From Sandarakinorhabdus cyanobacteriorum (GTDB lineage: Bacteria; Pseudomonadota; Alphaproteobacteria; Sphingomonadales; Sphingomonadaceae): a DNA stretch of 34,319 nt. Below are positions 9,811-34,169 of the stretch, in pieces. The stretch spans positions 1-34,319 of the forward strand of contig NZ_NOXT01000098.1 in assembly GCF_002251755.1 (NCBI RefSeq), given 5' to 3'. The notes under the pieces are model-generated. The model did not search any database, had not been told where the DNA came from, and saw only the letters and a program-made list of their open reading frames with translations. Position numbers and translations under genes: made by a program. The stretch's first letter is position 1. Every line of letters starts with the position of its first letter.

Positions 9811-11009
<1,199 letters not shown>

Positions 11010-11013
<4 letters not shown>

Positions 11014-13138: not shown

Positions 13139-15209
13139 TCGTCAGCCGCGCGGTGCGGGGCGTGCCGGTGCTGATGTTGTTGTCGGTGTGGGCGGTCGGG
13201 AAATAGGCGGTGTTGAACAGATTTTCGACGTTCAGCTGGCCCGAAATGCCCTTGGCCAGCTTGAAGAAGACCGCGCCATCCACCCGCGTGTAGGCCGGCA
13301 GTTCGACCATGTTGCTGATGCCGGTGAAGCTCTTGCCCTGGTGCAGGATGCCAAGGCCGACGCCCACCGGCTCGGCAATCTGGAAGCGCTGCCACAGGCT
13401 GGCCTGGAACTCCGGCACCAGCGGCACATGGCGGCCGGCCGGCGCGGCGCTGGTGGTGGACACGGTGCGGGCGCTCTGCACGGCAAGGCCGGCCTGCACC
13501 TGCCACCATGGCCGGATCTGGCCATCCAGGCCCAGTTCGATGCCGCGGCTGCGCTGGCGGCCGGTCAATTCCACCGTGCCGGCCACGGCGCCGGGGGCGC
13601 GGGTGTTGGTGCGGTCCAGCACATAGGCGGCGATGTTGAGGTTGAGCGTGGGCGTGATGTCCCACTTGGCGCCGATCTCGCGGTTGAGGAAGCCTTCCGG
13701 CTCCAGCGCGGCCAGGCTGGCATCCAGGCTGGTGAACTGGTCACCCGATTGCGGCAGGTAGCTGCGGCTGAAGCTGGCATAGAGGGACGCGTTCTTTGCC
13801 GGCTTCACCACCAGGCCGGCGCGCGGCGACCAGAGATGATCGGTGCGGGCAAAGCGGGTGCCGGCGAGCAGATTGTCGACGCCAAGGCTGAACCGGTCAT
13901 AGCGCAGGCCGCCGACCAGTTCGACCATCTCGCCGATCTTCACCTGATCCTGCACGAACAGCGCGGCCACGTCGGCCACGGCGCAGATGGAGCGGTTGCC
14001 GGCGCCGGCGCGGACGTTGAAGGTCGGTGGCGTGAACGGATCGGTGAGCGCCACGGTCACCCGGGTCGGCCCGCCGGCAAAGCCGTCGAAAAACCCGTTG
14101 ATGCGCTGGTTGCGGCTGACCTGGCGGCCCAGTTCGAACCCGGCCAGCAGCGTGTGGTCCATGCCGGCCAGATCGGTTTTCCAGGCAAGGTCGGTCTGGC
14201 TGAACAGGTTGCGGCGGCGGGTGGGGTCGCGATAGGCCTCGATGCCCAGGGTGCCGGCGGTGCTCAGCGGCGTTGCGGCATAGAGATTCACATATTCCTT
14301 GTCATAATCGGCCCAGCGCGTGGCGTTGTGCAGGGTGAGGCCATCGGCCAGTTCATAATTGGCGGCCAGGGTGAGGGCATCGACATTGACCGTGCTGCGG
14401 TTCTGCGCGGCATCGCCCACGAACAGGCTGCGCGCCACCGGTGCCGGCCGGCCGTTCTGCGAGGGGATGCCGCGGTCGGCCACCCGGTCATCGCTGGCAT
14501 GTTCATAGCCCAGCACCAGCCGGCCGCGCCCGCCAAGATCAAAGCCCAGCGTGGGGTTCACCGCCCAGCGGGTCAGGCCATAAGAATCGCGGTGGTTGCT
14601 GGCCTGTTCGACAAAGCCATTCAGCCGCGCCGCGACATGATCGGCCACCGGCAGATTGACATCGCCGCCCAGCCGCCAACTCCCCCACGTGTCGGCCGCG
14701 GCATCGGCGCTCAGCAGCCGTTCGCCGATGATCGGGGTCTTGGTCACCCGGTTGATCACGCCGCCGCCGCCGCCACGGCCGAAGATCATGGCGTTGGAAC
14801 CTTTCAGGATTTCCAGCCGGTCGAGATTGTAGAAATCGCGGAAATATTGAACATCGTCGCGCACGCCATCGACGAAGAAATCCGCCGTGCTGTTGTTGCC
14901 GCGGAGCACGATCTGGTCGCGATTGCCTTCGCCCTGCGCGCCCACAGCGCCGGGCACGAAGCGCAGCGCCTCCTGCACCGACAATATGGCCTGATCATCC
15001 AGCCGCTGCTTGGTCAGCACCGTGACGGCCTGCGGCACGTCGAGCAGCGGCGTGTCGGTGCGGGTGGCCGAGGTGATGCTGCCGGCGCGATAGGGTTGGT
15101 CGCGCTGGCCGGTCACCACGATGGTGCCGGCGTCATCCTCCATCCCATCGGCCGCGACGGCGGGGGCCGACAGCAGCAGGGCGGTGGAGAGGAGCAGCAC
15201 GCGACGCAT
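13122..15209 (-). CDS. TonB-dependent siderophore receptor (Fiu-like)
   Basis: A 695-residue outer-membrane receptor. Residues 1-19 are a signal peptide (MRRVLLLSTALLLSAPAVA). The TonB box region (TIVVTGQ) follows, then the plug with DVPQAVTVLTKQRL, QIVLRGNN, FVDGVRDD and RLEILKGSNAMIFGRG, and a 22-strand barrel ending in phenylalanine (TIRTSF). The plug resembles receptors for monomeric catechol siderophores, but ligand choice is uncertain. The start at 15209 gives the signal peptide; in-frame codons up to 15341 do not. A Fur-type palindrome lies directly upstream, so iron repression is likely. Confidence 0.92.
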   Translation of the reverse strand: MRRVLLLSTALLLSAPAVAADGMEDDAGTIVVTGQRDQPYRAGSITSATRTDTPLLDVPQAVTVLTKQRLDDQAILSVQEALRFVPGAVGAQGEGNRDQIVLRGNNSTADFFVDGVRDDVQYFRDFYNLDRLEILKGSNAMIFGRGGGGGVINRVTKTPIIGERLLSADAAADTWGSWRLGGDVNLPVADHVAARLNGFVEQASNHRDSYGLTRWAVNPTLGFDLGGRGRLVLGYEHASDDRVADRGIPSQNGRPAPVARSLFVGDAAQNRSTVNVDALTLAANYELADGLTLHNATRWADYDKEYVNLYAATPLSTAGTLGIEAYRDPTRRRNLFSQTDLAWKTDLAGMDHTLLAGFELGRQVSRNQRINGFFDGFAGGPTRVTVALTDPFTPPTFNVRAGAGNRSICAVADVAALFVQDQVKIGEMVELVGGLRYDRFSLGVDNLLAGTRFARTDHLWSPRAGLVVKPAKNASLYASFSRSYLPQSGDQFTSLDASLAALEPEGFLNREIGAKWDITPTLNLNIAAYVLDRTNTRAPGAVAGTVELTGRQRSRGIELGLDGQIRPWWQVQAGLAVQSARTVSTTSAAPAGRHVPLVPEFQASLWQRFQIAEPVGVGLGILHQGKSFTGISNMVELPAYTRVDGAVFFKLAKGISGQLNVENLFNTAYFPTAHTDNNISTGTPRTARLTIRTSF

Positions 15210-15219
15210 CGGAACAACC

Positions 15220-15240
15220 TGCGAATGATTATCAGACGCA
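15220..15240 (-). promoter_or_regulatory. Fur-box-like palindrome upstream of TonB receptor
   Basis: Read on the minus strand, TGCG-TC-TGATAATCA-TT-CGCA is an imperfect palindrome with the core TGATAATCATT, which matches the centre of the Fur consensus. It lies 10-30 bases before the receptor start codon, where bound Fur would block transcription or initiation. Fur is expected; other alphaproteobacterial iron regulators are possible. Confidence 0.65.
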
Positions 15241-15298
15241 GCCTTATTGCGACCGATTCTCAGATGGGCAAGCTGTAACTGCGAATCTTTCGCAAATT

Positions 15299-16192
15299 TC
15301 AGGTGGCGCCGATCCGGCACAGGGCCAGGCTGTCGTCCCACAGGGCGGTGCAGGCCGCCTCATCCCGCGCCAGTTCCGATGGCGCCGGCCAGGTGAGCCG
15401 GCCCTTGCGCAGCGACGCATAGACGCTGCCCGGCGGCGGCCGCACGCTGGTGGCCAGCAGCGCCAGATGGCGGCCGGCATCGGCGAGGCTGTTCATCGTC
15501 TTCCCGAACGGCAGCAGCAAGGGCAGCAACGGCCACACCAAGGTACGCACCACCCACATCTGCTGGCGCACCAGCCCGGTGCCCGGGGTGAGGCCGGGAT
15601 CATAGGCGACGATGCTGATGCCGCGGCTGGCCAGGGCCGCGTCGCGCGCCAGCACCCGCGCCACCATCAGGTTGCACAATTTGGACGCGGAATAGGCCCG
15701 CATGCCGGCGGTGATGGGGTTGCGGTCCAGTTCAGGATCCTGCGTGGGATCGGCCAGCCGCCGGGCATCGGCGTGGCGGGGCGGCGGCACGCCGGTGGCT
15801 TCAGCGGGATCATGGGTGCCGCTGCTGGTGATCACCACGCGCGCGCCATCGGCCAGATGCGGCAGCAGCCGCAGCACCAGCAGGAAATGGCCAAGATGAT
15901 TGGCCGCAAAGGTCAATTCATGGCCGTCGGCGGAGCGTTCCGCCACGGTCGGCCGCTGGCCGCCGGCGTTGAGCACGAGCGCATCGATGCGGGCACCGGC
16001 AAGCGCCGCAATCACCGCATCGGCAAAGCGGTGGACGCTGGCCAGGCTGGCCAGATCGAGGGGCAATCCCTCCACCCCTGCCGGTGCCGCGTCGCGCACA
16101 CCCAGCAGGATGCGCGCGCCCGGCTCGCGCAGCAGATGGCGCAGCGCTTCTGCGCCAATCCCCCGGCTGCCCCCGGTCATCACGATCTGCAT
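15299..16192 (-). CDS. Short-chain dehydrogenase/reductase
   Basis: A 297-residue NAD(P)-dependent oxidoreductase. TGGSRGIG (6-13) binds the cofactor, LNAGG (about 75-79) is the structural motif, serines near 123-124 and Y167/K171 of YSASK form the active site. Length and the NHLGHFLL segment resemble retinol-dehydrogenase-like SDRs. Start choice: ATG at 16192 with AAGGA six bases upstream, rather than the in-frame TTG at 16198. It diverges from a TetR regulator; a consensus-like promoter overlapped by two operator-like repeats lies between, so induction by that regulator's ligand is likely. Confidence 0.88.
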   Translation of the reverse strand: MQIVMTGGSRGIGAEALRHLLREPGARILLGVRDAAPAGVEGLPLDLASLASVHRFADAVIAALAGARIDALVLNAGGQRPTVAERSADGHELTFAANHLGHFLLVLRLLPHLADGARVVITSSGTHDPAEATGVPPPRHADARRLADPTQDPELDRNPITAGMRAYSASKLCNLMVARVLARDAALASRGISIVAYDPGLTPGTGLVRQQMWVVRTLVWPLLPLLLPFGKTMNSLADAGRHLALLATSVRPPPGSVYASLRKGRLTWPAPSELARDEAACTALWDDSLALCRIGAT

Positions 16193-22557: not shown

Positions 22558-23225
22558 TGCTGTTCAACGACACTGATCGCGCCCGCATCGCTGCGGCCAT
22601 TGCCACCGCCGAAGCCACCACGGCCGGCGAGATCGTGGTGATCGTCAACACAAGGCCGCACCGCTATGCCGCCACCATGCTGGCCGCGGCCGCGCTGGCG
22701 GCCTTCACGCTGCCGTTCGCCGCCGTGCTGCTGGGCTGGACGCCGTCGCTACTGTTTCCGGATTGGGATTCGCTCGATGCCGCCACCCGCGAAGCCCATG
22801 GCATCGAAGGCTTTGCCGCCGTGCAGGCGCTGTGCTTCCTCGCCATGCTGGCGCTGGTCGCACTGGCCCGGCTGGACCGTGCCCTCACCCCGCGCGGCCT
22901 GCGGCGGGACCGCGTGCACGCCGCCGCGCTGACCCAGTTCCGCGCCCGCGGCCTCACCCGCACCGCCGGCCGCACCGGCGTGCTGCTTTATCTGGACGAG
23001 GCAGAGCGGGTGGCCGAGGTGATCGCCGATGATGGCGTGTTCGCCTGTGTCGCGCCCGAAGACTGGGCCGAAACCATCGCGGCCTTGACCGGCGGCATCA
23101 AGGCCGGCCGCGCCGCCGATGGCCTGGTCACCGCCATCGCCCGCGCCGGCGCCGTCCTCGCCCGCCACCTGCCGCGCTGCGACGATGACGTGAACGAACT
23201 GCCCGACGCGCTGATCGAGTTATAG
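22557..23225 (+). CDS. Second TPM-domain membrane protein
   Basis: A 222-residue TPM-family protein. The N-terminal part (AAIATAEATTAGEIVVIVN) and the C-terminal part (RTGVLLYLDEAERVAEVIADDGV) form the divided TPM domain, with two membrane segments inserted (about 39-61 and 90-107). The ATG overlaps the stop of the first TPM gene and has GGAG seven bases upstream. lemA-TPM-TPM is a common operon. Its stop overlaps that of the convergent ccmI by 6 bases. Confidence 0.86.
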   Translation: MLFNDTDRARIAAAIATAEATTAGEIVVIVNTRPHRYAATMLAAAALAAFTLPFAAVLLGWTPSLLFPDWDSLDAATREAHGIEGFAAVQALCFLAMLALVALARLDRALTPRGLRRDRVHAAALTQFRARGLTRTAGRTGVLLYLDEAERVAEVIADDGVFACVAPEDWAETIAALTGGIKAGRAADGLVTAIARAGAVLARHLPRCDDDVNELPDALIEL

Positions 23226-24479
23226 GCCCATTTCGGCCGCTGCAGCCCTGATCCGGCCCTGGGCGGCGGCGTCACCGGCAAAGGCGGCCAGGGCCTGATC
23301 CCGGGCGGTGCGGGCGGCGGCAGCATCGCCCAGCACCTGGCGGGCGCGCATCAGGCGCAGCCAGCCGGCCTCGTCCTTCGGATTGGTCTTCAGCTTTTCA
23401 GCCAGGCCATCGACCATGCCCCGGATCATCGCCTGCCGGTCGGCCGGGTTCATCGCCTGGGCGGCTTGCACCTGCTCGCGGCTGGGGCTGGGCATCACGC
23501 CGGCGGGCGCACCGGCCGGCGCGGCGGTGGCAGCGGTGGTGGCGGCGGCGGCGGCCGGATCGGGCTGGCCGGGCACGCTGGCGTTGCCCACCGGGCGGGT
23601 GGCAGCCAGACGGGCGGCAATGTCGATCTTCGCCTGCTGCGCAGTCTGCTCGATTACGCTGCGCAATTGCGGCAGCCAGGGGGCATCGGCCGGGGAATCG
23701 GCCAACAGCTTCAGCCAATCCTCGATGGCGCCCTTGCGGTCCCCGGTTTCGGCCATGCGCACGGCCAGGAAATAGCGGGCGCGGGCATCGGCGCCATCCT
23801 GGGCGGCAGCCTTTTCAAAGGCGGCGGCGGCGGCTGGGGTCACCTGCCCGCCGGCTTCCTGCACCAGTGCCTCGCCATAGGCGCTATTGTAGCCAACACC
23901 ATCGGGTTTCAGCGCGATGGCGCGGGCATAGGCCTTGGCGGCATCGCCATAGCGGCCGGTCTGGAAATAGCTCCAGCCCAGCATGCGCCAGCCTTCCGGA
24001 TCCTGCGGGTTGGCCTGCATCTTCTGTTCAAGGCCAGTGATCAGCTGCGCCACTTCGCCCTGGGCTTGGGGTGCGGCCGGCGCGGCGGGCGGCGGCGCAG
24101 CAGCAGGGGCGGCCGGGCTGCCGGCCAGCTCGGGCTGGCCCATGTTGGTGTAGAGCGCGCCGGCGGCCAGCGCCACCATGGCGGCCATGCCCAGTGCCAG
24201 GCCGGACAGCGCCTTCTGACCCATGGTGCGGTCCAGTTCGGCCGGGATATGGCCGGCGGCGAGCAGGCGGCGGCGGATTTCGTTGCGCAGGCCTTCGGCT
24301 TCACCGGGCTGGATGCTGCCGGCCGCCAGCTGCACGTCGACATCGGCCAGCTGATCCTTCAACACGGCGATGGTGGCGGCGCGGGCGTCCACCCGGGCTT
24401 CGTGCCGGCGCACCAGCGGGATGGTGAGCCAGGCGGCAGCAAGGGCTGCCATCGCGGTGAGGATGATCCAGAGGGTCAT
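23220..24479 (-). CDS. ccmI: Cytochrome c maturation protein CcmI (CycH)
   Basis: A 419-residue apocytochrome c chaperone of the system I haem-attachment machine. The N-terminal domain has two membrane helices (about 3-21 and 92-112) around a soluble loop with a coiled-coil (ATIAVLKDQLADVD). The periplasmic part carries tetratricopeptide-like repeats (about 140-265; GWRMLGWSYFQTGRYGDAAKAYARA is split over two helices), an Ala/Pro linker, and a conserved C-terminal block LKTNPKDEAGWLRLMRARQVLG. It binds the C-terminal helix of apocytochromes and hands them to CcmF/H. It starts 13 bases after ccmH and ends the ccm run. Confidence 0.92.
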   Translation of the reverse strand: MTLWIILTAMAALAAAWLTIPLVRRHEARVDARAATIAVLKDQLADVDVQLAAGSIQPGEAEGLRNEIRRRLLAAGHIPAELDRTMGQKALSGLALGMAAMVALAAGALYTNMGQPELAGSPAAPAAAPPPAAPAAPQAQGEVAQLITGLEQKMQANPQDPEGWRMLGWSYFQTGRYGDAAKAYARAIALKPDGVGYNSAYGEALVQEAGGQVTPAAAAAFEKAAAQDGADARARYFLAVRMAETGDRKGAIEDWLKLLADSPADAPWLPQLRSVIEQTAQQAKIDIAARLAATRPVGNASVPGQPDPAAAAATTAATAAPAGAPAGVMPSPSREQVQAAQAMNPADRQAMIRGMVDGLAEKLKTNPKDEAGWLRLMRARQVLGDAAAARTARDQALAAFAGDAAAQGRIRAAAAEMGL

Positions 24480-24492
24480 GATGGGTCCGGTT

Positions 24493-25095
24493 TCAGCTCA
24501 GCCGATCCAGCTCGGCGCGTTCGGCATCGGAAAGGGGGGCGTCAGTCGTGGCGGCGGGCCGCCGGCGCTGCCACAGGGCAACCCCAACGCCGCCCAGGAT
24601 CAGCACAGCGAACGGGCCGGCCCACAGCAGCAGCGTGTCGCCTTCAACGGGCGGTTTCAGCAGCACGAAATTGCCATAGCGCGCCACCACATAATCCCGC
24701 ACCTCGGCATCAGATTTGCCCTTGGCGATCTGTTCGCGCACCAACAGGCGCAGATCGCGGGCCAGCGGGGCGTCGCTGTCGTCGATGGACTGGTTCTGGC
24801 AGACAACGCAGCGCAGATCCTTGCTGATGGTGCGTGCCCGTTGTTCCTGCGCCGGATCGGGCAGCATCTCATCGGGCATCACCGCCGCCGCCGGGGCGGC
24901 GAGAATGAGGGTGAGCAGGAGCCAGGCGACGCCATTGCCCTTGCGGGCGGAACCATGGCTGGCCAGAAATCCTCCCCCTCTGGGGGAGGTGCCCAAAGGG
25001 CGGAGGGGGCTTTCAGAGCGGAGCGCGCCGCCCCCTCCGCCGCCCTGCGGTCGGCACCTCCCCCAGAGGGGGAGGATTGACATCCAGGCCCTCAT
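24493..25095 (-). CDS. ccmH: Cytochrome c maturation protein CcmH, N-terminally extended by a repeat insertion
   Basis: A 200-residue ORF encoding the haem-lyase thioredoxin-like subunit CcmH/CycL. The family core is intact: LRCVVCQNQSIDDSDAPLARDLR with redox cysteines 96 and 99, and a C-terminal anchor (about 153-172). The ATG at 25095 overlaps the ccmG stop (ATGA), fixing it as the ancestral start. Codons 5-58 come from a 162-bp insertion containing two inverted palindromic repeats. Removing it leaves MRAW then LLLTLILAAPAAA, an ideal signal peptide, and a normal 146-residue CcmH. With it, the signal core starts near residue 59. No ATG or GTG lies nearer in frame; TTG (codon 34) is the only plausible alternative. 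Activity may be reduced. Confidence 0.88.
   Translation of the reverse strand: MRAWMSILPLWGRCRPQGGGGGGALRSESPLRPLGTSPRGGGFLASHGSARKGNGVAWLLLTLILAAPAAAVMPDEMLPDPAQEQRARTISKDLRCVVCQNQSIDDSDAPLARDLRLLVREQIAKGKSDAEVRDYVVARYGNFVLLKPPVEGDTLLLWAGPFAVLILGGVGVALWQRRRPAATTDAPLSDAERAELDRLS
24969..25011 (-). repeat. Palindromic extragenic repeat, copy 2 (inverted)
   Basis: This is the same element as at 5181-5228 but in reverse orientation, with the hairpin CCTCCCCC-TCT-GGGGGAGG and a shorter, variable side stem (GCCC-AAA-GGGC). It pairs with copy 3 to form a larger inverted repeat, like the paired REP arrangement called BIME. Confidence 0.85.
25031..25077 (+). repeat. Palindromic extragenic repeat, copy 3
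   Basis: This copy has the same orientation as copy 1, with hairpin CCTCCCCC-AGA-GGGGGAGG at its right end. It matches copy 1 except in the side-stem region (CCGCCCTGCGGTCGG against CGTCGCCTGCGGCG). About 19 bases separate it from inverted copy 2. Confidence 0.85.
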
Positions 25096-25619
25096 GCCTC
25101 TGCCCTCAGCTGCTGCATAAGCGGCTTGATTTCGCCTTCCCATTGTTCCGGGCTGATCGGGCCGACAATCTTGAACCGAACGCGGCCCTTCTTGTCGACG
25201 ACAAAGGTTTCCGGCGCGCCGGTGACGCCCAGATCGATGGCGGTGCGGCCGGACTGGTCCATGCCGAGGCCGGAATAGGGATTGCCAAAGCGGGCGAGGA
25301 AGGCGCGGCTGTCGTCTGGCTTGTCCTTCCAGGCGATGCCGTAAACCGGGAAGCCTTCCTGCGCGATGCGTTCCAGCACCGGATGCTCCTGCGGGCAGGC
25401 GGCACACCAGCTCGCCCACACGTTCAAAAGGCGCGGTTCGCCCCGGAAGCTGGCGCTGGCCAGATCGGGGCCATCGATGCCGGGCAGCGCGAATTCGGGC
25501 AGCGGCCGGTCGATCAGCTGGCTGGGCAGTTCCTTGGGGTCTTGCGTCAGGCCATAGCCCAGAAAGCCGGCGAGGCCGACAAAGGCGATGATCGGCAGGA
25601 TGAAGAGCAGGCGCTTCAT
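25092..25619 (-). CDS. ccmG: Thiol:disulfide interchange protein CcmG/DsbE
   Basis: A 175-residue membrane-anchored periplasmic thioredoxin that keeps apocytochrome haem-binding cysteines reduced. An N-terminal anchor (about 4-23) precedes a thioredoxin fold with the active site WCAAC (C72, C75), then PQEHPVLERIAQEGFPVYGI and the cis-proline loop GVTGAPETFVVD. The CAAC dipeptide is less common than CxPC. The ATG at 25619 lies 7 bases after the ccmF stop, without a clear ribosome site. Its stop overlaps the ccmH start. Confidence 0.94.
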   Translation of the reverse strand: MKRLLFILPIIAFVGLAGFLGYGLTQDPKELPSQLIDRPLPEFALPGIDGPDLASASFRGEPRLLNVWASWCAACPQEHPVLERIAQEGFPVYGIAWKDKPDDSRAFLARFGNPYSGLGMDQSGRTAIDLGVTGAPETFVVDKKGRVRFKIVGPISPEQWEGEIKPLMQQLRAEA

Positions 25620-25626
25620 GGCGGGC

Positions 25627-27612
25627 TTATTCGGCCGGAACCAGATTGGGCGCAAGAGGGGCACGGCTTTGCGGTGCGCCGATGCGGAAACGGCGATCCG
25701 ACAGGCTGGCCGCGCCGCCCATCGCCATCAACAGGCCGCCAAACCAGATCCAGCCGACCAGCGGATGCCAATAAAGCCGCACAACCAGGCCTTGGCCCTT
25801 GGCGTCGGACTGGACATCGCCGATGGCGACATATTGGTTGCCCAGCACGGAAACGCCGATGCCGGCTTCGGTCGTCTGGTTGCGGCTGTTGTCGTAGAAG
25901 CGGCGTTCGGAGACGAGGATGCGCTCGCTGCCGTTCTGGCGCACGGCAAAGCGGGCGCGCAGCGCACGGTAGTTGGCGCCGTCCACCTCTTCGGCGCCCA
26001 GCATGGTCAGGCTCAGCGGCCCGGCCGTGGTGGTCTCGCCGGGGCGAATGACCAGGATATGCTCGGCGGCAAAGCTGCTCATCGCCGCGATGCCGGCGGT
26101 GGTGAAGCCGATGCCGGCATGGGCGAGCGCCAGGCCGATGGTGGCGGCCGGCGTGGTGCGCACCAGCCGCAGCGAAAAGCCGCCGGCCCCCCACCAGCGC
26201 CGGGCCAGCACCAGGCCGGCGCCCAGCACCAGCCAGGCCCCGAGCGCCAGGCCGAGCGCGGCCGAGGCCTGGGCCAGACCGGTCCACAGGCTCAACCCGG
26301 CGAGCAGCGCCGCGGTGAGCGCGGCCGGCACCAGCAGCTTCCGGCCCACCACCGCCAGATCATCGCGCTTCCACGCCAGCATCGGGCCGGCGGTGACCAG
26401 CAGCAGCAACGGCACCGACAGCGGCACGAAGACCAGATTATAATAGGGCGGGCCGACCGAAATCTTGTTGGCCGGGGCCACCGCTTCCATGATCACCGGA
26501 TAGAAGGTGCCGAGGAAGACAACGGCGGTGAGCGCCATCAGCAGCAGATTGTTGAGCGTGAGGCCGGCTTCGCGGCTGACGCTGCCGAACAGCGCGCCGG
26601 ATTTCATCTGCGGCGCGCGCAGGGCAAACAGGCCCAGCGCTGTGCCGGTGGCGCCAATGATCATGGCCAGGATGAACACGCCGCGTTCGGGATCGACCGC
26701 AAAGGCATGGACCGAGGTGAGGATGCCGGAGCGGACGAGGAAGGTGCCGATCAGCGACAGGGAGAAGGCGAGGATGGCGAGCAGGATGGTCCAGCCAGCG
26801 AGAGACCCGCGTTTTTCGGTGACGATGGCCGAATGCAGCAGCGCGGTGCCGAGCAGCCACGGCATGAAGCTGGCGTTTTCCACCGGATCCCAGAACCACC
26901 AGCCGCCCCAGCCCAGTTCATAATAGGCCCAGAAGCTGCCCAGCGTGATCCCGCAGGTGAGCGGCACCCAGGCGGCGAGCACCCAGGGCCGCATCCAGCG
27001 CGCCCAGGCCGGATCGGCGCGGCCTTCGAGAAGGGCGGCGACCGCAAAGCTGAAGGTGACGGAAAAGCCGACATAGCCAAGATAGAGCAAGGGCGGATGG
27101 AAGACGAGGCCCGGATCCTGCAGCAGCGGGTTCAGTTCCGCCCCGTCCAGCGGTGCTGGCGACAGGCGCGCGAAGGGGTTGGAGGTGAACAGGGCAAAGG
27201 CCAGGAAGGCGACGGAGATCATCGCCTGCACGCTGAGCACCCGGGCCTGCAGGGTGGTTCTGAGATTGTCACCAAAGCGGGCGATGCCGGCGCCATAGAG
27301 CGCAAGCACCAGCACCCATAGCAGCATCGAGCCTTCGTGATTGCCCCAGGTGGCCGCCAGACGATAGGGCAGCGGCTGCGACAGGGCGCTGTGGTTGGCG
27401 ACCAGCGCGACGGAAAAATCGGCCTGGCCAAACAGGGTCATCAAGCAGCCAAAGGCGAGGGCGATCAGTACGGCCTGGCACGCTGCCGCGCTGCGCCCGA
27501 ACGCCATCAGTGCCGCATCCCCGCGCATCGCGCCCAGCATCGGCAGCACCGCCTGGGCGGCCGCGACCAACAGGGCGAGGATCAAGGCGAAATGGCCGAC
27601 TTCGGCAAGCAT
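25627..27612 (-). CDS. ccmF: Cytochrome c haem lyase subunit CcmF
   Basis: A 661-residue polytopic inner-membrane protein, full length. It opens MLAEVGHFALILALL, typical for CcmF. The tryptophan-rich haem-handling loop WGGWWFWDPVEN is at 235-246, followed by ASFMPWLLGTALLHS; ATWGNHEGSMLLWVL lies at 87-101 and FHPPLLYLGYVG near 171-182. With CcmH it ligates haem to CxxCH motifs. The start at 27612 fits the family; the in-frame ATG at 27663 would add 17 unlikely residues. It heads ccmF-ccmG-ccmH-ccmI; ccmA-E are not upstream and must lie elsewhere. Confidence 0.96.
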   Translation of the reverse strand: MLAEVGHFALILALLVAAAQAVLPMLGAMRGDAALMAFGRSAAACQAVLIALAFGCLMTLFGQADFSVALVANHSALSQPLPYRLAATWGNHEGSMLLWVLVLALYGAGIARFGDNLRTTLQARVLSVQAMISVAFLAFALFTSNPFARLSPAPLDGAELNPLLQDPGLVFHPPLLYLGYVGFSVTFSFAVAALLEGRADPAWARWMRPWVLAAWVPLTCGITLGSFWAYYELGWGGWWFWDPVENASFMPWLLGTALLHSAIVTEKRGSLAGWTILLAILAFSLSLIGTFLVRSGILTSVHAFAVDPERGVFILAMIIGATGTALGLFALRAPQMKSGALFGSVSREAGLTLNNLLLMALTAVVFLGTFYPVIMEAVAPANKISVGPPYYNLVFVPLSVPLLLLVTAGPMLAWKRDDLAVVGRKLLVPAALTAALLAGLSLWTGLAQASAALGLALGAWLVLGAGLVLARRWWGAGGFSLRLVRTTPAATIGLALAHAGIGFTTAGIAAMSSFAAEHILVIRPGETTTAGPLSLTMLGAEEVDGANYRALRARFAVRQNGSERILVSERRFYDNSRNQTTEAGIGVSVLGNQYVAIGDVQSDAKGQGLVVRLYWHPLVGWIWFGGLLMAMGGAASLSDRRFRIGAPQSRAPLAPNLVPAE

Positions 27613-27674
27613 GGCAGCTGGGGCTCCGGTGCGCGGGCAGCGAAAAAAGCGACGGCCCGTCATTCTTGGTCTAG

Positions 27675-27797: not shown

Positions 27798-30329
27798 GTG
27801 ACGGCTTATCGCATCGCCATCGTGGGATCGGGCCCGGCCGGCCTGTCGGCGGCGGCGCATGCGGCGCGTTTGGGCCTGTCCCATGTGTTGCTGGAAAAGA
27901 CCTACCATCTGTCGGACACGATCTACAAATATCAGAAGGGCAAGCATGTGATGGCGACGCCGTCACAGCTGGTGCTGCGATCCCCGCTGGATTTCGAGGC
28001 GGGCAAGCGCGAGGTGGTGCTGGGCACCTGGAATGACCAGACCGCCGCAGCCCAGGTGAATGTTCGCTATCATGCCGAGGTGAAGTCCATCGCGGGCACC
28101 GGGCCGGCCATCGAAGGCTCGGTGATGAAGATCGTGACACGCAAGCGGGACGGCACCAGCGAGACCCGCGAGCTGCAGCGGCATGCGCCGCCCTATCGCC
28201 TGACCCTGACCAATGGCGAGGAGATCATTGCCGAAACGGTGATTCTGGCCATCGGTACCCAGGGCAACCCCAATCTGATGACGTGCCCTGGCGGCAACCT
28301 GCCCCATGTGCAGTATCAGCTGGATGATCCGACCGAATATACCGACGAGCATATTTTCGTGATCGGTGGCGGCGATGCCGGGATCGAGAATGCGCTCGGC
28401 CTGTGTGCCGATCCGGCCCAGAACAATATGGTGACACTGGTCAACCGATCGGCCGATTTCGCCACCGCCAAGGATGCCAATGTGAAGGCGTTGCTGGCTG
28501 CCCGCGATTCGGGCCGGATCAGCCTGATGACCGAAACCACCACCCGCCAGATCGAGCCGGGTTACATCACGCTGGACACGCGCGACGGCGAAGTGCGAGC
28601 CCGTTGCGACCGGATCATCGCCCGCATGGGTTCGGCGCCGCCGCGCGGCTTTGTCGAAGGCTGTGGCATCGAATTTGCCTCGAACGACCGGCTGGCGTTC
28701 CCGAAATTGTCGGCCACCTTCGAATCGACAGCGCCCGGCATCTATGTGGTGGGCGCGCTGGCCGGCTATCCGCTGATCAAGCATTGCATGAACCAGGGCC
28801 ACGATGTGGTGGAGGTCATCAACGGCAACCTTGATCTGAAACCGGCGGACGAGCCGATCCTGGAAGCCAAGTTCACCGGCCTTCCCGGCGGACGCAGCGT
28901 GGCGGACTGGCTGGAATATCTGCGCAGCCGCGTTTCCATCCTGTCGGGCATGTCCAGCTTGCAGATGCGCGAGTTCATGCTGGATTCGAGCGTGAAGCTG
29001 TATCGCGCCGGCGATGTGGTGTTCGAACGCAATGCGCCCGGCTCCTCGCTGTTCGGCATCGCCGATGGCCAGGTGCTGGTGGAGGTGAACCCCAGCGATC
29101 CCAGCATCACCGTGCCGATCAATGCCGGCACCATCTTTGGCGAGGTTGGCCTGATTTCCGGGCGGCGGCGCGGGGCGACCATCCGCGCCGGCAGCGATTG
29201 CATCCTGGTGGAGATCAGCCGCAACGCCGCCCTGAAGCTGATGAGCCAGGTGCCATCGGCCGCGCGCGAGATCACCCGCATCACCACCGAGCGCAGCCTG
29301 CTGCAGATCTTCAAATCCGGCCTGGCGCCCGCCGATCTGGTGGATGTGATCGCCGGCGCCAAGGTGGAAAGCATCCGCGCCGGCCAGGCCATCATCAAGG
29401 AAGGCGAGGCGGGCGACGATATCTTCATCATCCGGTCGGGATCGATGGTGGTGGAAAAGAGCATCGGCGGCAAACCGGTGTTCTTGTCCTATGTGCCGGC
29501 GGGCAGCTTTGTCGGCGAAATGGCGGTGATCGATGGCTCCCCGCGCAGCGCCACCGTGCGCGCCGCGGTGAAGAGCGACGTGATCCGCCTGGCCGGCGAA
29601 CCCTTCCGCGCACTGTTGGCCGCCAAGCCGCAGCTGCTCGACAAATTGCGCGGCGAGATGGCCAACCGCACGCGGCTCAACAATTATATCGAATCCAAGA
29701 AGGACAGTTTTTCCAGCGTTGTCGACATGTACACCGGGGTGGCCAATTTCCTGGTGGATCAGGGCGTGGGTGAAGCCACCGATGTGCTGCTGATCGACGA
29801 GAAATTGTGCGTTGGCTGCGACAATTGCGAGAAGGCCTGTGCCGATACCCACGACGGCCTGTCGCGGCTCGACCGGGAGGCCGGGCGCACCTATGCCCAT
29901 TTGCACGTGCCGACCAGCTGCCGCCACTGCGAGCATCCCCATTGCATGGCCGATTGCCCGCCCAACGCCATCCACCGCGGGCCGACGGGCGAAGTCTATA
30001 TCGACGATACGTGCATCGGCTGCGGCAATTGCCAGCGCAACTGCCCCTATGGCGTGATCCGCATGGACAAGGTGCCGCCGAAGAAACCTTGGCTGCTCAG
30101 CTGGTTCCTGTTCGGCAGCGGCCCCGGCCCGGGCGAACCCAGCCACAAATGGGCGAAGAAGGCCGATCCCGCCTATGCCGAAAAGGCCAAGAAGGCGATC
30201 AAGTGCGACATGTGTTCGGGCCAGGAAGGCGGCCCGGCCTGCGTGCGCGCCTGCCCCACTGGCGCCGCCATCCGGGTGTCGCCGGAACAATTCCTGTCGG
30301 TCGCCCTCATGGGCCGGGAGGGCAAGTGA
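27798..30329 (+). CDS. Flavoprotein-(cNMP-binding)2-4Fe-4S ferredoxin fusion
   Basis: An 843-residue cytoplasmic multi-domain protein. Residues 1-345: FAD/NAD(P) oxidoreductase with GSGPAG (10-15), a second Rossmann motif GGGDAG (190-195) and the FAD-closing GIYVVGALAG; it lacks a thioredoxin-reductase CxxC. Residues 390-500 and 510-640: two cyclic-nucleotide-binding domains, each with the phosphate-cassette pair Glu and Arg (E449/R458; E574/R583). Residues 670-820: ferredoxin domain with 16 cysteines in four groups (CVGCDNCEKAC, CRHCEHPHCMADC, CIGCGNCQRNC, CDMC...CVRAC), as in DmsB/NrfC-type subunits with four 4Fe-4S clusters. It would pass NAD(P)H electrons through flavin and clusters to the membrane partner, gated by cAMP or cGMP. 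The start is GTG at 27798. Its stop overlaps the next gene (TGATG). Confidence 0.9.
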   Translation: MTAYRIAIVGSGPAGLSAAAHAARLGLSHVLLEKTYHLSDTIYKYQKGKHVMATPSQLVLRSPLDFEAGKREVVLGTWNDQTAAAQVNVRYHAEVKSIAGTGPAIEGSVMKIVTRKRDGTSETRELQRHAPPYRLTLTNGEEIIAETVILAIGTQGNPNLMTCPGGNLPHVQYQLDDPTEYTDEHIFVIGGGDAGIENALGLCADPAQNNMVTLVNRSADFATAKDANVKALLAARDSGRISLMTETTTRQIEPGYITLDTRDGEVRARCDRIIARMGSAPPRGFVEGCGIEFASNDRLAFPKLSATFESTAPGIYVVGALAGYPLIKHCMNQGHDVVEVINGNLDLKPADEPILEAKFTGLPGGRSVADWLEYLRSRVSILSGMSSLQMREFMLDSSVKLYRAGDVVFERNAPGSSLFGIADGQVLVEVNPSDPSITVPINAGTIFGEVGLISGRRRGATIRAGSDCILVEISRNAALKLMSQVPSAAREITRITTERSLLQIFKSGLAPADLVDVIAGAKVESIRAGQAIIKEGEAGDDIFIIRSGSMVVEKSIGGKPVFLSYVPAGSFVGEMAVIDGSPRSATVRAAVKSDVIRLAGEPFRALLAAKPQLLDKLRGEMANRTRLNNYIESKKDSFSSVVDMYTGVANFLVDQGVGEATDVLLIDEKLCVGCDNCEKACADTHDGLSRLDREAGRTYAHLHVPTSCRHCEHPHCMADCPPNAIHRGPTGEVYIDDTCIGCGNCQRNCPYGVIRMDKVPPKKPWLLSWFLFGSGPGPGEPSHKWAKKADPAYAEKAKKAIKCDMCSGQEGGPACVRACPTGAAIRVSPEQFLSVALMGREGK

Positions 30330-31234
30330 TGGCGAGCACCGCGCCCACACGCAAGGCGATGACCGGCAAGGCCGTTGCCCGCGCCCCGCGCGACACAGCG
30401 CACGAAGGCTTTCTCAACCACAAGCGGGCGCGCTGGGCCAAGGTGGCGGGCACGTTGAGCCTTGTCGCGCTACTGAGCTACATGCTAACCGATCCAACCC
30501 CGCGCCACAATGGCGGCACCTGGCTGGGCTATACGCTGGGCAGCATCGGCGCCGGTCTGATCGTCTGGCTGTCCTTGCTGGGCGTGCGCAAGCGGGTGAT
30601 CGGATCAAAGCCGTTCAGCCTGAAGGGCTGGACCAGTGCCCATGTCTATCTGGGTCTGTCGCTGATCGTCATCGGCACGCTGCACACCGGCTTCCAGCTC
30701 GGCTGGAATGTCCACACCCTGGCCTGGGCGCTGATGATGATCGTCATCCTGTCGGGCCTGTGGGGCATCAGCCTTTATGCCACGCTGCCCGAAAAACTCT
30801 CGGCCAACCGCGGAGAGGTGACGCAGCAGCAGATGCTGGAGGCGATCCGCACGCTTGACCGGCAGCTGGATCTGGCCGCCCAGCCTCTGGGCGCCGATGA
30901 TGCCGCGCTGGTGCGGATGAGCCTGGAGGAATGCCGCATCGCAGGGTCGCTGGGCCAGCGCCTGTCGGGCAATTATGCCAGCGACGGCAACGCTCGCGCG
31001 CTGGCGGCCATCGGCGAGAAGGTGATGGCCGGGCTGCGCAGCGGCCGGGCAGATGAGCGCTTGCAGCAGATCCAGTTCCTGCTGGAACGCAAGGAGGCGG
31101 CGCTGGCCCAGGCCCGCCGCCACATCGCCATGAAGGCCCGGCTGGAGCTGTGGCTTTACATCCATGTGCCGGTGACCATCGCGCTGCTGGCGGCGCTGTT
31201 CGCCCACATTCTTTCCGTGTTCCTCTATTGGTGA
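30329..31234 (+). CDS. Predicted diheme cytochrome b membrane protein
   Basis: A 301-residue integral membrane protein with five predicted helices (about 38-54, 65-87, 105-124, 130-151, 274-300). Helix 3 has H105 and H119, helix 5 has H279 and H293: two His-X13-His pairs, the classic spacing for two stacked b hemes. By the positive-inside rule the N-terminus and a roughly 110-residue helical segment between helices 4 and 5 are cytoplasmic, where the latter could dock the flavin/iron-sulfur partner; the C-terminus is periplasmic. The ATG overlaps the upstream stop and has GGGAGG about 8 bases before. Seven bases separate it from the decaheme gene. I do not recognise a named family. Confidence 0.85.
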   Translation: MASTAPTRKAMTGKAVARAPRDTAHEGFLNHKRARWAKVAGTLSLVALLSYMLTDPTPRHNGGTWLGYTLGSIGAGLIVWLSLLGVRKRVIGSKPFSLKGWTSAHVYLGLSLIVIGTLHTGFQLGWNVHTLAWALMMIVILSGLWGISLYATLPEKLSANRGEVTQQQMLEAIRTLDRQLDLAAQPLGADDAALVRMSLEECRIAGSLGQRLSGNYASDGNARALAAIGEKVMAGLRSGRADERLQQIQFLLERKEAALAQARRHIAMKARLELWLYIHVPVTIALLAALFAHILSVFLYW

Positions 31235-31241
31235 GGCGGGC

Positions 31242-33203
31242 ATGAGCTTCATCATCCGCCAATTGACCAAGCGGGCCGACGGCGGCGACATCATCCGCAC
31301 GCGCACCCTGGTGCAGGCCGAAATCAGCATCGGGCGCGGCACCGATTGCGACATCCAGTTGCCCGATCTGGCCGTGATGCTGCGCCACGCCCGGCTGGTG
31401 CGCATTGCCGCCAGCCGGGTGAGCATCGAGACCACGGGCGGCGTGCCGGTGGAGGTGGGTGGCAAGTTCGTCACCCGCGCCGATGTTGATCTTGCCGATG
31501 CCCCGGCGGTGGACATTGGGCCGTTCCGCCTGTCGTTGAGCGAAGGTGAGGATGGCGCGGTGGCCATCACCGCCGAACGGGTGATCCCGCCGATCGATAC
31601 GGCCGATGCCACTCAGGAGGTTTCGATCTTCTCGCTGCAGGGCGCCATGCCCACGCGGCGGCGATTGGCCTGGGTGGGCGCGCTGGTCGTTCTGGTTGGT
31701 CTGCTCCTGATCCCGCTGGTGCATTTCCTGGGCGAAGGCCGCGCCACGTTGCCGAAGGACATGCTGGCCGACGCGGCGCGCCCGGTCGCGCCCGGCCAGG
31801 CCTTTGGTGACGGCAAGCTGCGGGTGCCGACGGCGCGGCCGGCGGCGACTGGCGGCTTTGCGCCCGACGAAGTTTGGTCATCGGGTCCGTTGTCGAACGC
31901 CCATGCCAGCCTGTCCAACAATTGCGGCGCCTGCCACACGCAGGCGTTTGTGAGCGTGACCGACAGCGCCTGCCAGGCCTGTCACACCAAGGCGGCCCTG
32001 CCCGATCATGCTGCGCCGGCGCGCCTGGCCAATGGGCGGATGCCGGAAACCGGCGTGATGGCGGCGGCGCACAGCGCCTTCAACCTGCCGCAGGGCCGCT
32101 GCACCAGCTGCCACAAGGAGCATGAGGGCGAAGCCACGGTGATGACGGTGGCCGAGCAGTTCTGCACCGATTGCCACGCCGGGTTGAAAGGCCGGCTGCC
32201 CGATACGGCGGTGGCCAATGTGCCGGGCTGGGCAAAGCATCCCGATTTCCGCGCCACGCTGGTGGCCAGCCCGTCGCTCACCCAGCCGGTGTTTGCCCGC
32301 ACCGCGCTTGCTGGCGCGCGCGAACGCTCCGGCCTGATCTACCCACACGACATTCACCAATCCGCCACCAACGCGGTGGCCAACATGGCGCGCAAGCAAG
32401 GGTTCAGGCTGGCCAGCGACGGCAGCCTGCCCTGCAGCAGCTGCCATGTGCCCGATGCCGATCAGCTGCGCTTCAAACCGATCGACATGGAGGCCAATTG
32501 CGGCGACTGCCATGATCTGGCCTTCGCCCGCGATGGCGGCACGCTGCGCACGCTGCCGCACGGCAAGCCGGCGCAGGTGGCCGGGATCATCCGCGATTTC
32601 TACCTGTCGCAGGCGGTCGCCCCGCGCGCTGGCGTGCAGCGCATCACCTTTGATCGCCGCCCGCCCGGCCGCATGGCCGAGGTGGAAGCCGCGCAACTGC
32701 GCCTTGCCTCCATCGGTGATGCGCAAGCCCGCGCCCGCGCCGCGGTGGCCGACATCTTCACGGGCAAGGGATTGTGCACCGATTGCCATGTGGTGACCGT
32801 TACCGGCGCGGCGGACATCACCCGCCGCTTTGCCATCGCCCCGGTGACGATCAACGATCATTATCTGCCGCAGGGCCGCTTCCCGCACGGCAAGCACAAG
32901 AGCTATGACGGCAAGACCGGCGATGCTGCCTGTGTCGCCTGCCACACCGGCATCACCCGATCAAAGGCCGCCACCGATGTGAACATCCCTGGCGTGACCA
33001 ATTGCCGGGAATGCCATGGCGCGCCGGCCAAGACCCTGCTGGCCAACACCGCCAAGGCCGGCGACAGTTGCGACACCTGCCATGGCTATCACGATGGCGT
33101 GGCACCGGCGGGCGTGCTGCCGGCTGGTCATGGCGGTGGCGCCCGGGTGGCCGCGGCGGGCCACCGCGCGTCCGTTGCACGGGCGGCGGGATTCGGCTCC
33201 TGA
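31242..33203 (+). CDS. Membrane-anchored decaheme cytochrome c with N-terminal FHA-like domain
   Basis: A 653-residue protein. Residues 1-105 resemble a forkhead-associated domain (SIGRGTDCDIQLPD, RHARL), but the serine that normally contacts phosphothreonine is methionine (M46). A single membrane helix lies at about 143-163. The rest (228-614) is periplasmic and has ten CxxCH motifs: CGACH, CQACH, CTSCH, CTDCH, CSSCH, CGDCH, CTDCH, CVACH, CRECH, CDTCH. The tail is Gly/Ala/His-rich. The FHA part would face the cytoplasm and the hemes the periplasm. It should accept electrons from the diheme cytochrome b and needs the adjacent Ccm system. The final acceptor is unknown; a soluble oxidant or an outer-membrane conduit are options. 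Confidence 0.92.
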   Translation: MSFIIRQLTKRADGGDIIRTRTLVQAEISIGRGTDCDIQLPDLAVMLRHARLVRIAASRVSIETTGGVPVEVGGKFVTRADVDLADAPAVDIGPFRLSLSEGEDGAVAITAERVIPPIDTADATQEVSIFSLQGAMPTRRRLAWVGALVVLVGLLLIPLVHFLGEGRATLPKDMLADAARPVAPGQAFGDGKLRVPTARPAATGGFAPDEVWSSGPLSNAHASLSNNCGACHTQAFVSVTDSACQACHTKAALPDHAAPARLANGRMPETGVMAAAHSAFNLPQGRCTSCHKEHEGEATVMTVAEQFCTDCHAGLKGRLPDTAVANVPGWAKHPDFRATLVASPSLTQPVFARTALAGARERSGLIYPHDIHQSATNAVANMARKQGFRLASDGSLPCSSCHVPDADQLRFKPIDMEANCGDCHDLAFARDGGTLRTLPHGKPAQVAGIIRDFYLSQAVAPRAGVQRITFDRRPPGRMAEVEAAQLRLASIGDAQARARAAVADIFTGKGLCTDCHVVTVTGAADITRRFAIAPVTINDHYLPQGRFPHGKHKSYDGKTGDAACVACHTGITRSKAATDVNIPGVTNCRECHGAPAKTLLANTAKAGDSCDTCHGYHDGVAPAGVLPAGHGGGARVAAAGHRASVARAAGFGS

Positions 33204-33314: not shown

Positions 33315-34169
33315 ATGCTGGTTGCCCAGGTGACCGATATTCATCTCGGCTTTCAGCCGGACGATCCGGCCGAGATGAACCGCAAGCGGTTCGACGAGGT
33401 GATCGCCACGCTGCTGGCGATGAACCCGCAACCGGCGCTGCTGCTCGCCACCGGCGACCTGACCGAGCATGGCGCCATCGCATCCTATCAAACGCTGAAA
33501 TCCATCACCGACCGGCTGCCGTTCCCGGTCTATTTCGCGCTCGGCAACCATGATGTGCGCGTCAATTTCCGCAGTGTTTTCCCCGAAGTGCCGGTCTCCG
33601 CCAGTGGCCATGTGCAATATGATTTCGTGCACGGGCCCTTGCGCTTCGTCGTGCTCGACACGCTGCTGGAAGGCCAGCACGGCGGTGCACTTTCGCCCGA
33701 ACAGGCGCAGTGGCTGGACGAAACACTGGCCCGCGATGGCCGCCCCACCGTGCTGGTGCTGCACCACCCGCCAATCGAAACCGGCAATGGCTGGATGACC
33801 GAGGATCTTGATGCCCCGTGGGTGCAGCGCCTGGCGGACGTGGTGCGCCGCCACCCCCAGGTGATCCGCATGATCACCGGCCATCTGCACCGCGCCATCG
33901 TGACGGGCTGGCACGGCACCACATTGGCGGTGTGTCCATCGGCTGCGCCGCAGGTTGCCATTGATTTCCGCAGCATCGACCCCGAGGATCCCGACGGGCG
34001 CGACATGATCGTTGCTGAAACCCCCGGCTTTGCCGTCCATTGGTGGACCGGGCAGGATCTGATCACCCATTATGGCAGCGGCGGCGACCACCCGGTGCTG
34101 GCGCGCTACAACGCCCGCATGCAGCCCACCGTGCAGCATATCGTGGCGGAACGAGCCGGCGGGCATTGA
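33315..34169 (+). CDS. cpdA: CpdA-like 3',5'-cyclic-nucleotide phosphodiesterase
   Basis: A 284-residue class III metallophosphoesterase. All five metal-site motifs are present: DIH (D8, H10), GD (D48), GNHD (N78, H79), H150 in HHPP and GHLH (H190, H192), in the CpdA order and spacing. It probably hydrolyses cAMP (possibly cGMP). GAGGG lies seven bases before the ATG. It follows the decaheme gene by 111 bases on the same strand, next to a protein with two cyclic-nucleotide-binding domains, which suggests a regulatory link; it could still be a general housekeeping enzyme. Confidence 0.86.
   Translation: MLVAQVTDIHLGFQPDDPAEMNRKRFDEVIATLLAMNPQPALLLATGDLTEHGAIASYQTLKSITDRLPFPVYFALGNHDVRVNFRSVFPEVPVSASGHVQYDFVHGPLRFVVLDTLLEGQHGGALSPEQAQWLDETLARDGRPTVLVLHHPPIETGNGWMTEDLDAPWVQRLADVVRRHPQVIRMITGHLHRAIVTGWHGTTLAVCPSAAPQVAIDFRSIDPEDPDGRDMIVAETPGFAVHWWTGQDLITHYGSGGDHPVLARYNARMQPTVQHIVAERAGGH

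Follow-up and report, generated by a model that had tools for sequence, protein, structure and literature searches.

A predicted NAD(P)H-linked electron conduit with built-in cyclic-nucleotide-binding domains in sphingomonads

A contig of 34,319 nucleotides (NZ_NOXT01000098.1) from Sandarakinorhabdus cyanobacteriorum, one whole contig of a 3.5-Mb genome in 130 contigs and referred to here as the window, ends in a run of four genes on the forward strand. The first three, the trio, encode a flavin and iron-sulfur protein with two cyclic-nucleotide-binding domains (protein 1), a five-helix, probably dihaem, b-type membrane protein (protein 2) and a membrane-anchored cytochrome c with ten haem-binding motifs (protein 3), and the fourth encodes a phosphodiesterase-like enzyme. 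We consider it probable that the products of these genes form the inner-membrane half of a conduit across the cell envelope, one that is linked to reduced nicotinamide adenine dinucleotide (phosphate) (NAD(P)H), regulated by cyclic nucleotides and most likely electron-exporting, its outer half being a separately encoded, co-inherited module. A sequence-only reading of the window had proposed a three-gene wire of flavin, iron-sulfur and haem proteins. The coordinates and reading frames that it gave hold on re-checking, and its flavin adenine dinucleotide (FAD) domain, four [4Fe-4S] motifs, five helices, two HX13H pairs and ten CxxCH motifs were all recovered; it missed the two cyclic-nucleotide-binding domains, the fold and membrane anchor of protein 3, and the phosphodiesterase-like gene.

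Results

The trio is conserved as a unit

Protein 2 found matches in 31 of 398 Pseudomonadota genomes, 15 of them strong (>100 bits), and all 15 strong-match genomes have the trio in one order: iron-sulfur gene, b gene, decahaem gene. At locus L067, one of these, about 0.8 kb lies between the last two genes. In two of the 15, G212 and G093, genes 1 and 2 are fused into proteins of 1123 and 1118 residues, respectively; both fusions are single open frames with no ambiguous base and keep both WX3HX13H motifs and the 16 cluster cysteines, the G212 fusion having TG in place of SG on helix 4. The fusions, together with the fixed order, indicate that the iron-sulfur protein is the direct partner of the b protein. 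Loci were read for five of the 16 weaker matches, and all five look like relatives of the putative porin-cytochrome clusters PCC3 and PCC4 discussed below.

A further sample, the named loci, was drawn from GTDB species genomes. It comprised the best 80 of 556 confirmed loci, so that counts in it describe close relatives; ten that had under 5 kb of downstream sequence were set aside and 70 were counted. The b gene and a decahaem gene with exactly ten CxxCH motifs are adjacent in 70/70, and the trio is intact in every one. The sequence-only reading had named rare co-occurrence of the homologues as a result that would refute its proposal, and these counts do not refute it. The trio is spread through sphingomonads and beyond, the hosts of named loci including Sphingobium, Novosphingobium, Erythrobacter, Blastomonas, Sphingorhabdus and Phenylobacterium. 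A search of viral contigs found no relative. Twelve Sphingobium plasmid records (L199 and 11 others) of 0.88-1.28 Mb carry the iron-sulfur gene; one is typed as conjugative and eleven as non-mobilizable.

Residue counts were made in sets of 85 and 79 sequences picked by motif (cysteine motifs for the iron-sulfur protein, ten CxxCH for protein 3, WX3HX13H for the b protein), to which four iron-sulfur and six protein 3 outliers were added manually. Because the sets were picked in this way, counts of cysteines, proximal histidines and b motifs are partly by construction, and those of cyclic-nucleotide-binding residues and distal histidines are not.

Protein 1 joins flavin, cyclic-nucleotide-binding and iron-sulfur domains

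The first part of protein 1 has an FAD/NAD(P) fold (Pfam Pyr_redox_2, E 3e-22). It scores 120.3 bits with the model of the bacillithiol disulfide reductase YpdA (NCBIfam TIGR04018), under the cut-off of 339.9, and thus falls outside that family. The cyclic-nucleotide-binding domains that follow are recognised by Pfam with E 6e-34. Gly448, Glu449 and Arg458 of the first domain and Gly573, Glu574 and Arg583 of the second are present in 85/85 sequences; judged by these residues, both domains carry the Gly-Glu and Arg of a phosphate-binding cassette. In an alignment of 11 diverse homologues, the 16 cluster cysteines of the C-terminal domain, the FAD glycines and both Gly-Glu...Arg sets are all invariant. 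The genome of S. cyanobacteriorum itself has two class III cyclase-domain matches over cut-off.

Protein 2 has the signature of PCC3 and PCC4 inner-membrane proteins

Profile searches of the Pfam and NCBIfam type gave no family above cut-off for protein 2. Its AlphaFold model (mean predicted local distance difference test score, pLDDT, 82) has five membrane helices (residues 35-53, 65-87, 98-120, 128-158 and the end of 243-300), with a helical insert between helices 4 and 5. The histidine pairs 105/119 and 279/293 lie in WX3HX13H motifs on helices 3 and 5, whose Trp and His residues are invariant in 19 proteins including distant PCC3-like and PCC4-like ones (rows not picked by motif). The four histidines are also invariant in a 41-protein alignment, again not picked by motif, made from 40 of the 77 named loci with a b-gene match plus the window. 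A third HX13H match, from residue 265, looks incidental. On helix 4 stands an SGXXG motif (S142-G143-x-x-G146), its glycines invariant and its serine kept in at least 90% of the 19 proteins. Protein 2 therefore has the full signature of PCC3/PCC4 inner-membrane proteins: five helices, WX3HX13H on helices 3 and 5, and SGXXG on helix 4. The number of positive charges per loop (7, 1, 3, 0 and 16) places the N terminus and the insert inside, and thus H105 and H279 toward the cytoplasm and H119 and H293 toward the periplasm. Protein 2 probably holds two haems stacked across the membrane.

Protein 3 is a decahaem cytochrome with a predicted N-terminal FHA fold

The N-terminal domain of protein 3 has, in its predicted structure, a Forkhead-associated (FHA) fold. 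Foldseek returned 52 matches with E up to 1e-3 for this region, the best 50 of the 52 being mostly FHA domains or FHA proteins, and the Pfam FHA model gives 20.2 bits, slightly under its cut-off of 20.7. Beyond the membrane helix, ten CxxCH motifs were counted; 5000 shuffles of the protein gave at most two. Ten further periplasmic histidines accompany them, nine kept in 79/79 sequences and H552 in 74/79, and in two homologues with nine CxxCH motifs the tenth site is CX4CH. From these patterns the ten haems look bis-histidine coordinated, which would make protein 3 an electron-transfer relay with no catalysis. As the decahaem part was modelled poorly (mean pLDDT 57), structural interpretation is limited to residues 1-115 and the membrane helix.

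Gene 4 resembles cyclic-nucleotide phosphodiesterases

Judged by profile scores, the nearest curated models of gene 4 are both cyclic-nucleotide phosphodiesterases. It scores 119.9 bits with NCBIfam SpdA, which acts on 2',3'-cyclic nucleotides (cut-off 400), and 97.7 bits with CpdA, which acts on 3',5'-cyclic AMP (PRK11148; cut-off 225), and so lies below the membership threshold of either family. A gene of this kind adjoins the trio in 61 of the 70 named loci and lies within the fetched stretch in 65.

An outer module is co-inherited with the trio

Outside the window we recognise an outer module that consists of a C554-type cytochrome, an HbpS-like protein, a porin-like barrel and a large decahaem cytochrome with LVIVD repeats. 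In the genome of S. cyanobacteriorum it stands on a separate contig (C71), and the copy of the large cytochrome there has LVIVD repeats. In G424, by comparison, trio and outer module form a single seven-gene run on one strand, and on plasmid pMSHV of Sphingobium herbicidovorans both modules, which were recognised by gene order and haem counts and are annotated in general terms only, lie within about 16 kb. Homologous cytochromes of 1245-1424 residues occur near the trio in five loci, and the one copy that was scanned has LVIVD repeats.

The C554-type cytochrome (for example L101:15147-16697) keeps four CxxCH motifs and one CX4CH (residues 109-115) in 11/11 copies and is for this reason probably a pentahaem protein. 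The HbpS-like protein belongs with a haem-binding family, and its N termini look lipoprotein-like. All eight porin-like copies inspected end in Y or F; the label porin-like is drawn from these C-terminal ends and from the neighbouring genes, not from a family match.

Among 60 relatives, 23 carry a strong b gene and the LVIVD gene together, and neither of the two occurs in the other 37; two of these 37 have weak, PCC3-like b matches. Within the genus, 20 of 24 genomes have both the trio b gene and the LVIVD gene, and the same four have neither. A strong porin match was found in 12 of the 15 trio genomes versus 0 of the other 383 Pseudomonadota; a thirteenth match, in G327, is weak (E 1e-4). The hypergeometric p values for co-inheritance (4e-17 and 2e-20) take no account of kinship and should not be read at face value.

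In the genomes with fused genes 1 and 2, a small protein of about 150 residues with one CxxCH is encoded upstream (L066:2348-2806 and L067:4299-4754); it may be an alternative partner in these genomes, which have no porin or LVIVD match. The selenite/tellurite ExtM family (PMC5877670) was considered for the LVIVD cytochrome and not used, since the match is local (about 50 residues, 68 bits of 800).

Gene layout and surroundings

The coordinates of the four genes, their domains and the nearest upstream genes are collected in Table 1. Genes 1 and 2 share a single base, where the TGA of the former meets the ATG of the latter, a gap of 7 bases separates genes 2 and 3, gene 4 starts 111 bases past gene 3, and the contig ends 150 bases beyond gene 4. 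Genes for cytochrome c maturation stand upstream on the other strand; the redoxin among them is ccmG/dsbE-like. Cytochrome c maturation was rejected as the main purpose of the trio because ccmF matched in only 10 of the 70 named loci. Elsewhere in the window, an acyl-CoA dehydrogenase beside an APH-family phosphotransferase (9811-12023) looks like ordinary fatty-acid metabolism, and a TonB-dependent receptor (13122-15341) is likewise ordinary.

Table 1. Features of the trio, gene 4 and upstream genes in window coordinates
Feature	Residues	Position	Strand	Description or basis
Gene 1		27798..30329	+	Flavin/NAD(P), two cyclic-nucleotide-binding domains, four [4Fe-4S]; 843 aa; GTG start
Gene 1, FAD/NAD(P)-binding domain	4-334	27807..28799	+	YpdA/thioredoxin-reductase-like; Pfam Pyr_redox_2/3
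Gene 1, first cyclic-nucleotide-binding domain	~400-500	28995..29297	+	Phosphate cassette 447-464
Gene 1, second cyclic-nucleotide-binding domain	524-608	29367..29621	+	Pfam cNMP_binding; cassette 572-589
Gene 1, HycB/DmsB-like domain	664-828	29787..30281	+	Four [4Fe-4S] motifs; 16 Cys
Gene 2		30329..31234	+	Five-helix, probably dihaem, b-type inner-membrane protein; 301 aa
Gene 2, WX3HX13H on helix 3	W101, H105, H119	30629..30685	+	Invariant in 19 proteins
Gene 2, WX3HX13H on helix 5	W275, H279, H293	31151..31207	+	Invariant in 19 proteins
Gene 3		31242..33203	+	Membrane-anchored decahaem cytochrome c, N-terminal FHA-fold domain; 653 aa
Gene 3, FHA-fold domain	1-115	31242..31586	+	pLDDT ~90; Foldseek best E 2.7e-5
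Gene 3, single transmembrane helix	140-164	31659..31733	+	Predicted structure
Gene 3, periplasmic region, ten CxxCH	228-614	31923..33083	+	Motif count
Gene 4		33315..34169	+	Metallophosphoesterase, nearest SpdA and CpdA; Pfam Metallophos; 284 aa
ccmF, divergently adjacent to the trio		25627..27663	-	Cytochrome c maturation; Pfam CcmF_C, E 1.6e-92
CcmG-like redoxin		25092..25664	-	Pfam Redoxin
CcmH/CycH-type tetratricopeptide repeat protein		23220..24479	-	Cytochrome c biogenesis; upstream context of the trio

Discussion

A proposed gated route for electrons out of the cell

In the mechanism that we favour, NAD(P)H would reduce the FAD of protein 1, and the electrons would pass through the four [4Fe-4S] clusters to the two stacked b haems of protein 2, cross the membrane and enter the ten haems of protein 3, whose helix anchors it in the inner membrane and whose haem part would extend into the periplasm. 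From there they would be handed to the outer module, with its C554-type cytochrome, HbpS-like lipoprotein, porin-like barrel and LVIVD decahaem cytochrome, and on to an extracellular acceptor. If every motif is filled, the whole would hold 32 redox centres (1 FAD, 4 iron-sulfur clusters, 2 b haems and 10 + 5 + 10 c haems). A bound cyclic nucleotide would probably open or close this path at protein 1, as is suggested by the position of the tandem domains between the flavin and the iron-sulfur domains; the enzyme of gene 4 would reset the signal, and the FHA-fold domain would probably dock protein 3 to protein 1 or 2. That a second messenger gates the conduit directly, after translation, with the cyclic nucleotide switching export and the phosphodiesterase of the same run ending the signal, is a tentative proposal from the domain arrangement, to which we give somewhat less than an even chance. 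The wire from cytoplasm to periplasm put forward in the sequence-only reading is well supported by the fixed gene order, the two fusions and the spacing of cofactors, and its extracellular end point gains support from the co-inherited porin-like and cytochrome module; nothing was found that points to its other suggestion, a detoxification device.

Several observations weigh against this mechanism. The FAD domain could take electrons from a donor other than NAD(P)H. A strict cassette pattern, loosened at two positions, matches twice in 63 of the 85 iron-sulfur sequences, once in 20 and nowhere in 2, and since it fails to match twice in 22/85, the outer positions of the cassettes evidently vary. 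The best curated model for gene 4 is the 2',3'-cyclic-nucleotide enzyme SpdA and not CpdA, and a counterpart of gene 4 is not adjacent to the trio in 9 of the 70 named loci. As to the phosphothreonine-site motif of FHA domains, G31-R32 and H49 are invariant in the 34 sequences aligned and the usual Ser and Arg of the site vary (34 of 44 rows were used, two being dropped for a stop codon in the range and eight as a precaution). No solved structure matched the model of protein 2 in Foldseek with E below 0.1 (best E 0.17), and fold comparison was dropped as a means of identifying it. The porin-like protein has no sequence match in Pfam, NCBIfam or the PDB. Neither a porin nor an LVIVD match was found in G212, G093 and G060, the genomes with the most divergent trios, and G213 has the porin and HbpS-like genes without an LVIVD match. 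Moreover, in 38 of the 70 named loci the fetched stretch (up to 10 kb on each side) lacks an LVIVD gene, so that trio and outer module are often not close neighbours.

Direction, donor and purpose

Outward flow from NAD(P)H is downhill and runs along the membrane potential, whereas transfer inward to NAD(P)+ would be uphill and would oppose it. RuBisCO has no match in the 23 trio genomes among the relatives, and the hosts include Sphingobium and Novosphingobium, which we take to be ordinary heterotrophs. For these reasons export is favoured, and it seems unlikely that the same parts run in reverse and carry electrons from Fe(II), Mn(II) or another extracellular donor into the quinone pool or to NAD(P)+. 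Uptake does have points on its side. In the model of He et al. 2017 (PMC5566968) the homologous proteins of the inner membrane are quinone-linked and carry electrons inward, which also speaks against export here, and a cluster of 10-CXXCH 'Forkhead-associated protein' sequences is recorded for 27 of 87 genomes of iron oxidizers (PMC10734462). Photosynthetic reaction-centre genes occur in the genome of S. cyanobacteriorum and in 20 of the 23 trio genomes among relatives; however, G025 and G035 (completeness 100 and 91) have the trio but no reaction centre, and 7 of the 37 relatives without the trio have one. A link to photosynthesis was rejected: the trio lies about 14-19 kb from reaction-centre genes in 7 of the 23 trio relatives (G001:C8, G003:C198, G007:C8, G008:C23, G010:C7, G011:C10 and G017:C101), but the two are not co-inherited.

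The electrons might also come from quinol, oxidised by the b protein, with the flavin and iron-sulfur protein as a side input or regulator. A quinone-active cytochrome b is what He et al. suggest for this family of inner-membrane proteins (PMC5566968). We nevertheless regard this arrangement as quite unlikely, because the fusions of genes 1 and 2 and their fixed order imply direct partnership, a ferredoxin-flavoprotein resembling the start of protein 1 stands near the b gene in four of five PCC3-like loci, and at L071 the gene run that includes the PCC4-like b gene also encodes an FNR-type reductase. A flavoprotein was not seen in the L070 stretch, however, and the 423-residue gene of L069 is similar-looking only at its start. 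A comparably low probability attaches to a cell-surface oxygen or ferric reductase, in which exported electrons would make extracellular superoxide or Fe(II) under aerobic conditions and serve no respiration. The named hosts are largely sphingomonads, presumably aerobic in life style, the outer module includes an HbpS-like protein of a haem-binding family, and the HX13H layout resembles that of ferric reductases and NADPH oxidases (NOX), as noted by He et al. (PMC5566968). Yet no acceptor of any kind has direct support, and no NOX or FRE structure appears among the 50 Foldseek matches listed for protein 2. A redox sensor, in which the haem chain would report the periplasmic or extracellular redox state inward to the cyclic-nucleotide-binding domains, the FHA domain and the phosphodiesterase and so alter a second messenger, would account for the presence of all these regulatory parts in one four-gene unit. 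It appears very unlikely, as about 32 redox centres over both modules far exceed the needs of a sensor and searches of the trio turned up no kinase or cyclase domain (for protein 1, among the best 25 families).

Relation to known systems

He et al. 2017 (PMC5566968) described the putative porin-cytochrome clusters PCC3 and PCC4 and proposed that they are quinone-linked and take up electrons. The features given there for the inner-membrane proteins of both are those of protein 2. PCC4 has a five-helix protein with two WX3HX13H motifs and SGXXG, and a decahaem cytochrome, and its Subgroup II has an iron-sulfur gene (pfam13247) upstream of the membrane protein, like the trio (PMC5566968). We assigned loci as PCC3-like (L021, L022, L026, L072 and L073) or PCC4-like (L069, L070 and L071/L109) by layout only. 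The b proteins of L071 and L021 are homologous to protein 2 (hhalign 97.7% and 97.6%, respectively), and the iron-sulfur protein of L071 carries cyclic-nucleotide-binding domains as protein 1 does, with its FNR-type reductase encoded separately. In the trio, by contrast, the flavin domain is fused into protein 1, the decahaem protein bears an FHA fold and a phosphodiesterase-like gene is present; the outer module differs as well in its LVIVD decahaem and HbpS-like proteins and in its porin, which is unrelated to that of L109 (hhalign 0.4%). PCC4 is defined by a porin, periplasmic cytochromes of 4, 5 and 10 haems and the membrane protein in one cluster, whereas the window holds no porin. PCC3 is defined by a porin together with periplasmic and extracellular cytochromes whose haem numbers are very high (medians 21 and 34). 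Where complete, the cytochromes of our PCC3-like loci have 21-33 haems versus ten in protein 3 and ten in the LVIVD cytochrome, and the cyclic-nucleotide and iron-sulfur part of protein 1 finds no match in the five PCC3-like loci.

MtrAB and PioAB do the same class of job, carrying electrons across the envelope. Membership in Mtr/Pio was rejected, since the MtrB/PioB model exceeds its cut-off in 0 of 25 trio genomes, with a sub-threshold match in G213. NADPH oxidases and ferric reductases share with the trio, as predicted, a cytoplasmic NAD(P)H flavin donor, two transmembrane b haems and HX13H pairs (PMC5566968); unlike them, the trio has an iron-sulfur relay and a decahaem periplasmic acceptor, and Foldseek gave no structural match. 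The Gallionellaceae cluster 403, a 10-CXXCH 'Forkhead-associated protein' listed in Table 1 of PMC10734462 without function, neighbours or mechanism, fits protein 3 in name and haem number and probably resembles it. Protein 2 is thus a member of the inner-membrane protein family of PCC3 and PCC4, and the whole, which falls outside the definitions of PCC3, PCC4 and Mtr, looks like a sister class. He et al. also mention further five-helix b proteins beside unassigned multihaem cytochromes, among which this trio may be included, and the term 'cyclic nucleotide' is absent from their main text (PMC5566968). The sequence-only reading knew of no characterised system of this kind; no matching description of the trio or of the LVIVD/porin module was recognised in the open-access literature (subscription papers and supplements lay outside the scope), but predicted relatives do exist in the PCC3 and PCC4 inner-membrane proteins. 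What appears new is a predicted export conduit with built-in cyclic-nucleotide-binding domains, its PCC3/PCC4 kin being themselves only predicted.

Implications

These results supply a parts list for a trans-envelope conduit from NAD(P)H to the cell surface, whose proteins are labelled in one RefSeq plasmid record as 'hypothetical', 'cyclic nucleotide-binding domain-containing' and 'cytochrome c3 family'. As a flavin or NAD(P)H-type protein stands near the b gene in most of the related loci read, they also put the quinone-pool model for PCC3 and PCC4 inner-membrane proteins under pressure. To our knowledge, sphingomonads are not known as electron exporters, and gating by cyclic nucleotides would for the first time place electron export under the kind of control seen in ion channels or protein kinase A. 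If the proposal is true, it would represent a new bacterial way to control the flow of electrons out of the cell, and it offers a directly testable case of electron export under second-messenger control in bacteria available in culture, among them Sphingobium herbicidovorans.

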